Assembly (NCBI RefSeq): GCF_040448685.1
Contig: NZ_CP159290.1
Coordinates: 2,108,001-2,172,000, forward strand
Origin: Cellulosimicrobium sp. ES-005
GTDB lineage: Bacteria > Actinomycetota > Actinomycetes > Actinomycetales > Cellulomonadaceae
DNA length: 64,000 bases
Reading direction: 5' to 3'
Within the stretch, counting starts at the first letter, position 1; each line of letters opens with the position of its first letter. Both the position numbers and the translations under genes were made by a program. Positions 22,692 through 46,658 of the stretch are shown piece by piece. Below the pieces are notes generated by a model. That model saw only the letters and a list, made by a program, of their open reading frames with translations, had not been told where the DNA came from and did no database searches.

Positions 22692-24353
22692 TCAGAACAG
22701 GACCTGCTCCACTCCCCCGCCGACGACGTCCAGACCCCCGCCGTCGACCGGCATGCCCGCGAGCGCGCCGCCGTGGCCGCGCCCGTCCGATTCCTGAGGC
22801 GACCCGGCGAGGCTCCCCCTCGGGTAGGCGCCGTCCGTCGGCGGCCCCGGGTCGCGGTGACCGTCCCCGAGACCGCCGAGCTCGCCCCGGCGGTACCGCC
22901 CCTCGACGCCCGCGGGACCGCGGTGGCCGGACACCGAGAAGCCGCGCGCCTCGAGCATCGGGCGCACGCGGTCCCACAGCCACGAGCGGTACGCCTTCGA
23001 GGCGTACGCGCCACGGGCGTAGACCCGCTCGTAGCCGGGGACGAGCTGCGGGTGCTCCCGCGCGAGCCAACCGAGGTACCACTCGCGCGTCCCGGGCTTG
23101 AGGTGCAGCGGCAGCACGGTGACCCCCGTGGCCCCGGCGTCCTTCACGGCGTCGAGCAGGTCTGTCAGCGCGCGCGTGGAGTCGGTGAGCCACGGCAGCA
23201 CGGGCGCGACCATGACGCCGCACGGCAGGCCCGCCTCGCGGACGGCGCGGATCAGGTCGAGGCGGGCGCGCGGTGAGGGCGTGCCCGGCTCGACGCTCGC
23301 CTGGAGCGTCGGGTCCAGCAGCGCGAGCGAGACGCCGATCCCGACCTCGACGCGCGAGGCGGCGTCGGCGAGGAGCGGCAGGTCGCGGCGCAGGAGCGTG
23401 CCCTTGGTGAGGACCGACAGGGGCGTGCCGGAGCCCGCGAGCGCGTCGATGATGCCCGGCATGAGGCGGTAGCGCCCCTCGGCCCGCTGGTAGGGGTCCG
23501 TGTTCGTGCCGAGCGCGACGGGCTCGCGGCCCCACGACGCGCGGGCGAGCTCGGCGCGCAGCACCTCGTCGACGTTCACCTTGACCACGACCTCGCGGTC
23601 GAAGTCGTCGCCCGCGTCGAGGTCGAGGTACTGGTGGGTGGGCCGGGCGAAGCAGTTGTGGCTCACGACCCCGGCGGCGACGAAGTCCCGCGTCCCGGTG
23701 GTGATGTCGACGAGCTCGGTCTCCTCCCCCGGCCCGTCGAGCGCCTCGAGCGAGTCGACGCGCAGCGCCTCGTCGCCCGTGACGTCCCGGCCCTCGAGCG
23801 CGACCCGGCCGCCCGCGAGCGCGGCCGCCCCCGGGCCGACGAGGACGTCGCCCAGCGCCAGGTGGGCGCGGCGCCCGGCCCCGCCGACGACATGGCGCCA
23901 GCCCCGTTCGGTGAGGAACCGGTGGTCACCGCTCGCGACGAGGCGCGTGCCGTCCGCGAGGGTCACGCGGTACGCGCGCTTGCGGGTGGTCCAGCGGTCG
24001 AGCACGCGCGTGCGCACGTAGCGCCGGTAGGCGCCGTGCGGCGCGGTCCCCACGATCTCGTCGCCGACCCGCAGCTCGCCGATCGGTCGCTGCGTGCCGT
24101 CGGCGAGCAGCACCGGGGTGGACGGCGCGAGGCAGTAGGAGCAGGCGTGGCTGCACCCGCGGTACGGGTTGACCGTCCAGCGGAACGGCATGCGCGACAT
24201 CGCCGGGACCTTCGACAGCGCGCTCTTGGCCGTCACCTCGTGGAACGTGATGCCCGCGAAGTCGGGCGTGCGCACGCTGCGCACGAGGCCCGCCCGCTCC
24301 AGCCCCGGGAGAGCGCCGTCGTCCGCGCCGAGCGCTTGTCCGTCCCACCTCAC
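22692..24353 (-). CDS. Rv2578c-family radical SAM protein interrupted by an intein
   Basis: 553-residue precursor from the GTG at 24351-24353 (VRWDGQALGADDG). NPYRGCSHACSY (residues 62-73) supplies the first two Cys (67, 71) of the CX3CX2C motif that holds the SAM-binding 4Fe-4S cluster. A 160-residue intein (74-233) follows. The host then resumes CFARPTHQYLDL, with Cys234 the third ligand. After splicing the enzyme is 393 residues, with SplB-like segments such as ALGTNTDPYQ. The C terminus is Gly-rich and low-complexity. The family is related to spore photoproduct lyase; its reaction is unknown. A perfect SOS box covers the promoter. Further upstream starts are open but lie inside that box. 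Confidence 0.92.
   Translation of the reverse strand: MRWDGQALGADDGALPGLERAGLVRSVRTPDFAGITFHEVTAKSALSKVPAMSRMPFRWTVNPYRGCSHACSYCLAPSTPVLLADGTQRPIGELRVGDEIVGTAPHGAYRRYVRTRVLDRWTTRKRAYRVTLADGTRLVASGDHRFLTERGWRHVVGGAGRRAHLALGDVLVGPGAAALAGGRVALEGRDVTGDEALRVDSLEALDGPGEETELVDITTGTRDFVAAGVVSHNCFARPTHQYLDLDAGDDFDREVVVKVNVDEVLRAELARASWGREPVALGTNTDPYQRAEGRYRLMPGIIDALAGSGTPLSVLTKGTLLRRDLPLLADAASRVEVGIGVSLALLDPTLQASVEPGTPSPRARLDLIRAVREAGLPCGVMVAPVLPWLTDSTRALTDLLDAVKDAGATGVTVLPLHLKPGTREWYLGWLAREHPQLVPGYERVYARGAYASKAYRSWLWDRVRPMLEARGFSVSGHRGPAGVEGRYRRGELGGLGDGHRDPGPPTDGAYPRGSLAGSPQESDGRGHGGALAGMPVDGGGLDVVGGGVEQVLF
23655..24134 (-). other. Mini-intein inside the radical SAM gene
   Basis: This region codes for 160 residues with all the splicing blocks and no endonuclease. 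Block A starts with Cys1 (CLAPSTPVLLADGTQ). Block B has the His in LVASGDHRFL. Block F and G read DITTGTRDFVAAGVVSHN, with the penultimate His and terminal Asn. The next host residue is Cys, the +1 nucleophile. There is no LAGLIDADG or HNH motif, so it cannot home by itself. It sits directly at the third Cys of the radical SAM motif. Precursor without splicing should lack a normal cluster site. Confidence 0.95.
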
Positions 24354-24359
24354 CCGCAC

Positions 24360-24389
24360 ATTCGAACAGGTGTTCGATCTCCAGGTCAA
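24360..24389 (-). promoter_or_regulatory. SOS (LexA) box over the radical SAM promoter
   Basis: TCGAAC-AGGT-GTTCGA on the plus strand (24362-24377) is a perfect match to the actinobacterial LexA consensus TCGAAC-N4-GTTCGA. On the minus strand it overlaps a promoter made of TTGACC (24384-24389), 18 bases and TCGAAT (24360-24365), followed by 6 bases and the GTG start. LexA bound here would block transcription, giving damage-induced expression. Confidence 0.8.
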
Positions 24390-24544
24390 GCCCCGCGGTC
24401 CTCCCCGGGGGACGCCTGCTCCGCGTCAGCGGCGACCCGCACCCTGCGCAGGGCCGGTGCACGGGCGGCCCAGGGCCCGTCCCGCGGGCTGAGACGCCGG
24501 GATTGTCCGCGTGGCCCCGAGGGCCTAGGGTCGGGCCGAACGCC

Positions 24545-24643
24545 CCCGGGGAGCGCACGAGCGCTGAGAGTGCAGGCCGGACACCCGTCCCACCTGCAGA
24601 CCCGTGGAACCTGATCTGGTTCGTACCAGCGAAGGGAGCAGGG
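24545..24643 (+). promoter_or_regulatory. TPP (THI-box) riboswitch
   Basis: The aptamer core is recognisable. GCGCTGAGAG (24571-24580) matches the CUGAGA pyrimidine-binding segment. CCTGATCTGG (24610-24619) then ACCAGCGAAGGGAG (24625-24638) matches the ACCUGAU...CCAGCGNAGGGA pyrophosphate helix. It precedes ykoE by about 125 bases. In that gap GCAGGG (24637-24642) can pair with CCCTGC (24657-24662), competing with the aptamer's 3' side. CCCTC (24733-24737) can mask the GAGGG ribosome site (24755-24759). Translation control is therefore likely, but that step is inference. Confidence 0.93.
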
Positions 24644-24766
24644 CCGACGTCACCGTCCCCTGCGCGCTCGTGCCCGTGCGCCCCGCACGCGGCCGGGCGC
24701 GCCGGGCCCGGCGGTGGCGCGCCGTCGTGCACCCCTCGCCCCGGGGGCCCGACGGAGGGAACCCGC

Positions 24767-25492
24767 ATGGCCGAGCCCCGCACCACCCCGCAGCAGGCGA
24801 CCCCGACCGCCGCCGCACCCACCGACCAGCCGCCCACCGGATCGGCCGGCGTGCCGGCCGACCTGTCGGCCGGCGGGGTGCCCGGTCTCGCGGTCCGCCC
24901 GACCGGGCGCCCCGCACGGCGCCGCGGGCTGACGCTCCACGAGACGGTGCTCGTCGCCGTCCTCGGCGTCGTCTTCGGGTTCGTGTACTGGGCGTTCGTC
25001 CAGCTCTGGGCCCCGCTCCAGCTCGCGATGGGCCCCCTCGCGGACCTCGCCGCGAACGTCCTCGCGGGCGCGTGGATCGTCGTCGGCCCGCTCGCCACGT
25101 ACATCGTGCGCAAGCCGGGGGTCGGCATCCTTGCCGAGACCCTCGCCGCGCTCGTCGAGGTCGTCTTCCTCGCGTCCCCCGCGGGGCCGCTGCTGCTCGT
25201 CGTGGGCCTGGTCCAGGGCGTCGGCGCCGAGCTGCCGTTCGCGCTCACGCGCTACCGCCGGTTCGGATGGTGGGTCTTCGTCGCGTCGGGCGTGAGCGCG
25301 GCCCTCGTCACGTTCGCCTTCAACGCCGTGCGCTTCGGCTGGATCGGTCAGGACTACGCGATGCTCCGGCTCGGGATCCAGGTCGTGTCGTGCGTCGTGC
25401 TGTGCGGCCTCGCGGCCCGCCTCCTCGGCGACGCGCTCGCCCGCACGGGCACCCTCGACGCGTTCGCGATCGGCGCGGCCCGCCGTGGGTGA
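24767..25492 (+). CDS. ykoE: ECF transporter substrate-binding (S) component YkoE, thiamine precursor
   Basis: 241 residues from an ATG with GGAGGGA 7 bases upstream. The first 55 residues are a Thr/Ala/Pro-rich extension. About six membrane helices follow: TLHETVLVAVLGVVFGFVYW, then the ANVLAGAWIVVGPLATYI, AETLAALVEVVFLA and later segments typical of YkoE. It is the membrane S protein that picks up hydroxymethylpyrimidine or thiamine. It lies directly under a TPP riboswitch and overlaps ykoD by 8 bases. Confidence 0.92.
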   Translation: MAEPRTTPQQATPTAAAPTDQPPTGSAGVPADLSAGGVPGLAVRPTGRPARRRGLTLHETVLVAVLGVVFGFVYWAFVQLWAPLQLAMGPLADLAANVLAGAWIVVGPLATYIVRKPGVGILAETLAALVEVVFLASPAGPLLLVVGLVQGVGAELPFALTRYRRFGWWVFVASGVSAALVTFAFNAVRFGWIGQDYAMLRLGIQVVSCVVLCGLAARLLGDALARTGTLDAFAIGAARRG

Positions 25493-45084: not shown

Positions 45085-45723
45085 TCAGCCCCTCGGTCCG
45101 CCGAGGACGCGCAGCGCGGCACGCAGCGCGCCGGCCACGTCGGGCGCCTCGACGACGTCGACACCGGCCTCGGCGAGGACGGTGGAGACGGCGTCGTCCG
45201 CGGCCTTGAGGTTCCAGCCGAGCCCGACGAGCGCCTCGACCACCTGGTCCCGACGGTCGTCGACCGGGCGCGGGCCGGTCCCGGTGGCCGGCGCGCCCGC
45301 CCCGGGGGCGTCGGCCCCGGTGGGCGGCCCGAGCTTGTCGCCCAGCTCGAGCGCGATCCGCTGCGCGCCCTTGGTGCCGATGCCGGGGACACGCACCAGG
45401 GCGGCGATGTCGCCACCTCCCACGGCGCGTCGCAGGGCGTCGGGCGTGTGCACCGCGAGCATCGCGAGCGCGAGCCGCGGCCCGACGCCGCTGACGGTCT
45501 GGACGGTCTCGAAGACGGTCCGCTCGTCGTCGTCGGCGAACCCGTAGAGGGTGAAGGAGTCCTCGCGGACCACGAGGCTCGTCGCGAGCCGAGCGTCCTC
45601 GCCCACGCGCAGGCCCGCGAGGGTCGCCGGCGTGGCGTGCACGAGGTAGCCCACTCCCCCGACCTCGAGCACGGCGCGGTCGAGCTGGACGCTCGCCACG
45701 ACTCCGCTCAGCGACGCGATCAC
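45085..45723 (-). CDS. ruvA: Holliday junction DNA-binding protein RuvA
   Basis: 212 residues. The N-terminal OB domain begins [26 protein letters not shown], followed by two helix-hairpin-helix motifs ([15 protein letters not shown] and [16 protein letters not shown]), a linker rich in Pro/Gly, and domain III ([18 protein letters not shown]), which contacts RuvB. It tetramerises on four-way junctions. It is separated from ruvC by 155 bases that hold an SOS-like box, so it may start its own transcript. Confidence 0.96.
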
Positions 45724-45807: not shown

Positions 45808-45823
45808 TCGAACACCCGTACGA
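45808..45823. promoter_or_regulatory. SOS-like (LexA) box upstream of ruvA
   Basis: TCGAAC-ACCC-GTACGA differs from the TCGAAC-N4-GTTCGA consensus at one base. It lies 85 bases before the ruvA start. A TAGAGT on the minus strand at 45832-45837 could be a -10 just ahead of it. Together they suggest damage induction of ruvAB apart from ruvC. Confidence 0.6.
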
Positions 45824-45878: not shown

Positions 45879-46448
45879 TCAGCGCGGTGCCCGCCGGGCC
45901 TTCGCCGCGTGCTCGGCCGCGGCCCAGGCACGCTGCGCCGGCGTCAGCTCGTGCCGCTCGCCGCCCTGGAGCGCGCCCGAGGGTCGCCACAGGTGGCAGA
46001 TCGCGAGCGCGAGCGCGTCGGCGGCGTCCGCGGGCCTCGGCGGCTCCGCGAGCCCCAGGATGCTCGCGACCATGCGCTGGACCTGCTCCTTGCCCGCGCG
46101 CCCGCTCCCCGTGACCGCAGCCTTGACCTCGGACGGCGTGTGCAGCGCGACGGGGACGCCCCGCTTTGCCGCGCCGACCATCGCGAGACCCGCGGCCTGG
46201 GCCGTGCCCATCACGGTCCCGACGTTGTGCTGGGCGAACACGCGCTCGACCGCGACGACGTCCGGAACGTGCTCGTCGAACCACGCGTCGAGCCGCTCCG
46301 CGATCCGCAGCAGCCGCAGGTCCACGCTGAGGTCCGGGTCCGTCCGGATCACGCCGACGGCCACGAGCTCGGCCCGCCGCCCCCGCGCGGAGTCCACCAC
46401 CCCGACGCCGCACCGGGTCAGCCCAGGATCCACACCGAGAACGCGCAC
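45879..46448 (-). CDS. ruvC: Holliday junction endonuclease RuvC
   Basis: 189 residues from a GTG with GGGAGG about 8 bases upstream. RNase-H-like fold with the acidic active site visible: [12 protein letters not shown] (first Asp), [11 protein letters not shown] (Glu), and [16 protein letters not shown] (last Asp pair). It cuts four-way junctions symmetrically after RuvAB migration. A 97-bp inverted-repeat element separates it from yebC upstream. The reading frame is open further upstream, but family similarity starts at this codon. Confidence 0.95.
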
Positions 46449-46521
46449 CCCGCTAGCCTCCCACGAGCCGACGACGGAACCTCGGCGCCTCGCGGGCACG
46501 CACCGAGGTGAGCCGACACCG

Positions 46522-46618
46522 GCGGGGTGGGTGGGACGCGCGCGGTCGTGGCGGGCCTGGCGGGAGCCGCGAGGGACGAGCGGCGGATGGTAGACCGCGC
46601 GCGTCCCACCCACCCCGC
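46522..46618. repeat. 97-bp element with perfect 26-bp inverted repeats between yebC and ruvC
   Basis: The left arm 46522-46547 and right arm 46593-46618 are exact reverse complements over 26 bases, beginning GCGGGGTGGGTGGGACG. They enclose 45 bases with no further strong symmetry. Nothing else in the window matches the arms. The stem is longer than a normal terminator stem, and the loop is large. It could be a small non-autonomous repeat, or a terminator/attenuator that separates ruvC from yebC. Confidence 0.8.
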
Positions 46619-46658
46619 ACCCAGGGCGACCAGACCTCACCTCGGGCGAACCCAGCGG

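Follow-up and report, generated by a model that had tools for sequence, protein, structure and literature searches.

A LexA-type operator and a mini-intein in an Rv2578c-family radical SAM gene of Cellulosimicrobium sp. ES-005

The intein-bearing Rv2578c family of radical SAM proteins is already known and carries a curated name. Rv2578c of the tubercle bacillus is under LexA control, and mycobacterial RecA carries inteins. MoaA of P. abyssi is a radical SAM enzyme. Splicing of its intein is reported to be controlled by a native disulfide between Cys-3 and Cys1 (PMC3922620, PMC10663303). In M. smegmatis, a disulfide on the catalytic cysteine of the DnaB intein is reported to stop splicing (PMC6195587), and zinc is reported to bind the catalytic cysteine of DnaBi1 and inhibit splicing (PMC7360933). 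The radical SAM gene vnz_31145 of S. venezuelae has a LexA ChIP peak and is induced 20-fold by mitomycin C; its authors liken the product to enzymes repairing thymine cross-links (PMC9380542).

Here we describe an Rv2578c-family gene of Cellulosimicrobium sp. ES-005. It is located in a 64-kb stretch of DNA, which was analyzed as a whole and is referred to as the window. We propose that the gene encodes an SOS-induced radical SAM enzyme with a fold like that of the spore photoproduct lyases, and that it carries a canonical intein derived from a mobile element. Our rough probability for this explanation as a whole is 0.72.

The intein-bearing gene and its start

The coding region is divided as follows.

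22692..24353, minus strand: Rv2578c-family radical SAM gene with an in-frame intein, encoding a precursor of 553 residues from a GTG start at 24353
24135..24353, minus strand: N-extein, 73 residues, ending in ...C67-SHA-C71-SY
24141..24155, minus strand: stretch running from the codon of C67 (-7 relative to the intein) to that of C71 (-3); both cysteines are ligands of the cluster and invariant in a 29-row alignment
24132..24134, minus strand: codon of C74, which is Cys1 of the intein and occupies the position of the cluster's third ligand
23655..24134, minus strand: class-1 mini-intein, 160 residues (residues 74-233), from Cys1 to His-Asn and followed by Cys+1
23652..23654, minus strand: codon of C234 (+1), which takes the third ligand position once the intein is spliced out and is invariant in the same alignment
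22692..23654, minus strand: C-extein, beginning with C234-FARPTHQYLD

The precursor scores 786.2 bits with NCBIfam NF038136, named for the intein-containing Rv2578c family radical SAM protein (cut-off 700), and 520.8 bits with NF038135, the Rv2578c family radical SAM protein (cut-off 430). Its place in the radical SAM superfamily is indicated by a score of 50.9 bits with Pfam Radical_SAM (PF04055, cut-off 29.5) and by a CX3CX2C motif formed by C67, C71 and C234 after splicing.

Homologues were collected from 300 loci. Searches of the host genome and its GTDB family with the family model gave 31, a phylum search gave 29, and 160 were fetched as stretches; the other 80 are named loci. These are the best 80 of 584 and hence biased towards the query; they include loci of C. 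cellulans (L032, 93% identity) and C. composti (L033, 92%). The parser required the cluster cysteines (GC-X3-C-X-Y/F-C) and sought inteins only at the third of them. Start codons were accepted directly before Arg/Lys-Trp/Phe (MRW-type). We left out 26 unparsed loci, 22 parsed loci without an MRW-type start, one with short upstream DNA and eight duplicates. The remaining 243 unique loci start with ATG in 159 cases and GTG in 84.

The preliminary description had put its right end at 24389, where a mechanically called, in-frame TTG lies upstream of the LexA box. With this start the operator would fall within the coding sequence, and the homologues start at MRW. On this comparison we replaced it with the GTG at 24353 (MRWDGQAL...). 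Read from there, the numbering of C67, C71, C74 and C234 agrees with the one given before. The 160-residue, endonuclease-free intein that had been placed at the third cysteine of CX3CX2C is also located exactly, from 24134 down to 23655.

The intein has no endonuclease-sized insert, and Cys1 is its only internal cysteine. Among inteins shorter than 200 residues, 31 of 36 have no cysteine beyond Cys1. Assignment to class 1 is based on C74, SGDH in block B, the terminal HN, C234 and a TIGR01445 score of 26.3 bits (cut-off 24.5); the Pfam Intein_splicing score of 20.8 bits, under the cut-off of 35.8, counts against it. All 76 intein-bearing homologues have a His-Asn end, Cys+1 and Tyr at -1, although the parser would have allowed other residues at these positions. 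The presence of Cys-7, Cys-3 and Cys1 in 76/76 inteins, and of the cluster cysteines in 242/242 exteins, reflects selection by the parser and is not evidence. Once the intein is excised, the third cysteine is 49 residues from the next conserved motif in 243/243 loci, with or without an intein, a constancy that excludes other inteins only between these two points.

In the proposed splicing reaction, Cys74 would attack the Tyr73-Cys74 bond, Cys234 would take over the N-extein and Asn233 would cyclise. The exteins would then be joined as CSHACSYCFAR, in which C67, C71 and C234 could hold a [4Fe-4S] cluster.

The host genome contains a second intein-bearing gene (L318, C1:2784183-2784416, minus strand). 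It encodes a DnaB-like helicase in which two inteins were recognized by eye.

The operator and its conservation

Three elements were located upstream of the start codon.

24362..24377, minus strand: perfect LexA operator TCGAACACCTGTTCGA, ending 8 nt before the start codon, a distance kept in homologues
24384..24389, minus strand: -35-like TTGACC, found by eye; TTGAC is prominent in the aligned homologues
24360..24365, minus strand: -10-like TCGAAT, found by eye, overlapping the operator; the 6 nt that separate it from the GTG would suit a leaderless mRNA

The preliminary description had reported a perfect LexA consensus over the promoter, and the box TCGAAC-N4-GTTCGA at 24362-24377 is indeed the only zero-mismatch site in the window. 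Sites with up to two mismatches number 12 in the window, against 3.8 expected. Across the 4.86-Mb genome there are 10 perfect boxes, including this one, and 40 sites with at most one mismatch; the reversed pattern gives 4. Boxes with one mismatch lie upstream of the host lexA and recA genes, whose family matches begin 240 nt and 171 nt from them, respectively.

The box is conserved in homologues. We took the best site between -100 and +20 of each start, and estimated the chance level from mononucleotide shuffles of the upstream regions. A box with at most two mismatches is found in 230 of 243 genes, 74/76 with an intein and 156/167 without, compared to 0.2% of the shuffled regions. Its last base is at -7 to -11 in 214 of the 243 (70 with an intein, 144 without). 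The remaining 13 best boxes have three mismatches. They belong to L064, L080, L093 and L249 and to 9 of the 11 loci of one family, coded f6 and with large genomes (L112-L115, L118-L121 and L125). In these nine the site is GGGAAC-N4-GTTCTA, and its last base is at -31 to -34 relative to the MRW start. The operator layout is thus not universal, being shifted and altered in the f6 loci.

Outside the class we scanned 54 loci. For those without an MRW-type start, the position of the cysteine motif was used to place a stretch of 300 nt, or less where a contig end was close. A box with at most two mismatches is present in 40 of the 45 loci in or near the family, and in one of nine more distant relatives (154-244 bits). 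For one of the five misses (L290) the scanned region was wrongly placed. The operator looks like an old property of the enzyme family. The fixed-distance operator in 214/243 homologues, the box in 40/45 loci outside the class and the one-mismatch boxes at the host's own lexA and recA strongly support SOS control of the gene, as first suggested. With an operator so widely conserved, the Rv2578c family, on which little work has been done, probably belongs to the actinobacterial damage response.

The same region had been described as a leaderless promoter. By eye, the layout is TTGACC, 18 nt, TCGAAT, 6 nt and GTG. When homologues are aligned on the box, they show TTGAC, TCGAAT, about 6 nt and ATG or GTG. 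The final T of TCGAAT is invariant in the 173 homologues of the commonest spacing class, and a motif resembling a Shine-Dalgarno sequence is rare (1/173 in this class, 0/11 and 3/30 in the others). The spacing, the invariant T and the rarity of such motifs support, without proving, a leaderless mRNA under a LexA-covered promoter, and the claim is kept in this weaker form. In the undamaged cell, LexA bound to the operator over the promoter would block transcription. After damage, RecA would be activated and LexA cleaved, and a leaderless mRNA would be made from at or beside the GTG.

Several other elements were found near LexA boxes or the gene. A one-mismatch box at 45808-45823 of the window lies between genes named by eye as ruvC-like (45879-46640, minus strand) and ruvA-like (45085-45723, minus strand). 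Elsewhere in the genome, three perfect boxes (L303-L305) occur within 115 nt at C1:2088228-2088342; by a simple distance rule, no open reading frame starts within 300 nt of them. Ten open reading frames assigned to perfect genome boxes by the same rule, some of these frames being probably mechanical, were scanned with NCBIfam; only one gave matches, to a YbhB/YbcL-like protein. In the divergent region next to the radical SAM gene, a TPP riboswitch (Rfam RF00059, 62.5 bits; window 24537-24656, plus strand) is found upstream of genes that appear by eye to encode a thiamine-type transporter and start near 24768.

Intein history and the precursor

The operator and the intein had been described as two stacked gates on one gene. 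The homologues do not suggest a designed switch, since box and intein vary independently. A perfect box is found with 43/75 intein-bearing and 81/167 intein-free exteins (Fisher p = 0.21). We rejected a tie between the intein and SOS control for want of an association with perfect boxes. An independent-pairs test of the intein against the perfect box gave a median p of 0.63, from fewer than six informative pairs in most draws and hence with little power. Two distant relatives (L296 and L297) carry an intein at the same cluster cysteine, and the 300 nt scanned in each contain no LexA box. The comparison of start region and intein site across homologues shows a conserved operator near the start and an exact site of insertion. 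What this analysis adds is that the operator is conserved widely and at a fixed distance, and that it varies independently of the intein. In the literature searched, nothing among the matches listed joins an intein of the Rv2578c family with SOS control. Searches combining Rv2578c with intein, Rv2578c with LexA, and intein with spore photoproduct lyase found nothing.

The distribution of the intein suggests a mobile passenger. Intein lengths in homologues fall at 143-214 and 249-350 residues, and LAGLIDADG_3 was found in two of four large inteins scanned. Among 135 loci of the GTDB family, including the present one, 88 have no intein, 27 have one of less than 200 residues and 19 one of 200 residues or more; one was unparsed. 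In a FastTree phylogeny of 242 exteins, at least 35 changes of intein state are required, compared to a mean of 64 with shuffled labels. Within the genus, two of 16 distinct genes (L020 and L029) lack the intein and have a clean empty site; the intein-bearing L153 is the sister of L020, with support of 97/98. By their size the inteins of the genus have no endonuclease, which makes precise loss or replacement there probably likelier than new gain. We also looked for pairs whose inteins are more alike than their exteins predict. The top residuals are close relatives only, and beyond the sporadic pattern itself nothing here points to horizontal transfer.

The intein is under purifying selection, with slightly looser constraint than the extein. 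In 13 genus pairs with locus L001, dN/dS is 0-0.34 for the intein and 0.06-0.16 for the extein; in the four most distant pairs the intein value is 1.2 to 2.1 times that of the extein. Constraint of this kind suggests that the intein splices. A decaying or inactive intein in a gene dying as a pseudogene in this lineage is extremely improbable. Ser in place of Thr in the TxxH of block B and the low Pfam Intein_splicing score (20.8 against 35.8 bits) would fit decay, but SGDH is found in 48 of 76 family inteins, the frame is open, the junction residues are intact and dN/dS is well under 1 in both intein and exteins.

In the mobile-passenger reading, the intein would come from a homing element whose target was the conserved sequence encoding the cluster motif, and whose endonuclease has since been lost. 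The need to splice and the difficulty of a precise deletion would keep it in the genus, and regulation would not require it.

The insertion site is where redox or metal control would be chemically simplest, within the cluster motif. The preliminary description held that the precursor should not bind a normal cluster before splicing brings in Cys234. This goes too far, since the precursor keeps a complete CX3CX2C (C67-X3-C71-X2-C74) with Cys1 as the third ligand. A metal or cluster might therefore bind in the precursor and block splicing. The MoaA-type arrangement of Cys-3 near Cys1 in a radical SAM host is also present, in C71 and C74. By analogy with the characterized inteins, control of splicing by redox state or metals would be plausible on chemical grounds. 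Conservation of the candidate trap cysteines is silent on regulation, because the insertion site and cluster binding force them.

Two specific gates were weighed against an unregulated passenger. In the first, SOS induction would raise the precursor level, and a disulfide between Cys71 (-3) and Cys74 (1), or between Cys74 and Cys234, would delay splicing under oxidizing conditions. The oxygen-sensitive enzyme would then form only after the cytoplasm turns reducing. Cys-3, Cys1 and Cys+1 are all present, the native Cys-3/Cys1 disulfide of MoaA is a reported precedent (PMC3922620, PMC10663303), and a thiol switch would need just these residues in the 31 of 36 short inteins that have no other cysteine. 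We nevertheless consider this damage switch unlikely. These cysteines would be present in any case, given where the intein is inserted and what the cluster needs. The intein is sporadic and shows no association with the perfect operator, and L020 and L029 of the same genus manage without it. Accumulation of the precursor was not found in the literature searched.

In the second, C67, C71 and C74 would bind an Fe-S cluster or zinc, which would occupy Cys1 and block splicing, and splicing would sense the supply of metal or clusters. The complete CX3CX2C of the precursor and the reported zinc inhibition of M. smegmatis DnaBi1 through its catalytic cysteine (PMC7360933) agree with such a gate. Against it, the cluster geometry may be disrupted by the 160 residues inserted at the third ligand. 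The precursor as modeled with AlphaFold (pTM 0.62) has a pLDDT below 50 at 66-71 and 235-250, too low to speak for or against binding. We regard this gate as very doubtful. A broader version couples enzyme activation after transcription to the redox or Fe-S state: a disulfide or metal at C67/C71/C74 would hold the SOS-made precursor inactive till cluster assembly is possible. It appears rather improbable. A purpose-built double switch is no more than a possibility. The mobile-passenger reading remains the one we prefer. The same LexA-operator enzyme occurs with and without the intein in one genus, which offers a clean natural setting for asking if an intein can regulate its host.

Enzyme fold and comparison with known systems

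An intein-free homologue (L091) was modeled with a pLDDT of 81 and a pTM of 0.81; the cluster loop, residues 69-92, is below 50. Its top fold matches are spore photoproduct lyases, with Z scores of 15.5-16.1 and deviations of 3.6-4.2 Å over 250-271 residues. The next fold family is lipoyl synthase (Z 13.6). Foldseek also put spore photoproduct lyases at the top, and its following matches include lipoyl synthase and MiaB. They came first again, weakly, in a profile search against PDB sequences (best E 0.0093). In spore photoproduct lyase the fourth cysteine, C140, is the hydrogen donor. No invariant non-cluster cysteine was found in the 242 exteins; the best candidate is at spliced position 218, where 206 of them have Cys.

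A fold predicted to resemble spore photoproduct lyase does not show function. A possible role in DNA repair is suggested by SOS control together with the fold, and after cluster binding the radical chemistry would act on a lesion or another substrate. Alternatively, the SOS-induced enzyme may act on RNA, protein or a metabolite and not in DNA repair. The fold also fits the RNA-acting MiaB, RlmN and the lipoyl synthases, the family has no invariant non-cluster cysteine like the hydrogen donor of spore photoproduct lyase, and repair by a Streptomyces member is called speculative by the authors who describe it (PMC12924846). Spore photoproduct lyases are, however, the top structural matches, and conservation of the LexA operator extends beyond a single class. 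We regard a non-repair role as a serious possibility that is still the less probable one.

The gene lies above both curated cut-offs of NF038136 and NF038135. The intein is already part of the NF038136 name, and we see no difference in kind from these families; their NCBIfam listing is silent on LexA control and conditional splicing. vnz_31145 is also a radical SAM gene of a LexA regulon, and is compared as such and not as an established Rv2578c member. Its reported box is weaker and located at -61, and no intein is mentioned in the available part of the report (PMC9380542). The RecA inteins of mycobacteria are likewise found in an SOS-controlled gene, but the host protein and the insertion site differ.

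Spore photoproduct lyase (PDB 4fhc, 4fhe, 4fhf, 4fhg, 4k9r and 4rh0) is the closest solved fold, at 14% identity. Its conserved fourth cysteine is not kept invariant in the Rv2578c family, which differs further in its SOS operator. The P. abyssi MoaA intein likewise has Cys at -3 and Cys1, presumably in the same place of CX3CX2C. MoaA is an archaeal molybdenum-cofactor enzyme for which the disulfide itself has been reported, whereas the present gene combines an SOS operator with candidate trap residues.
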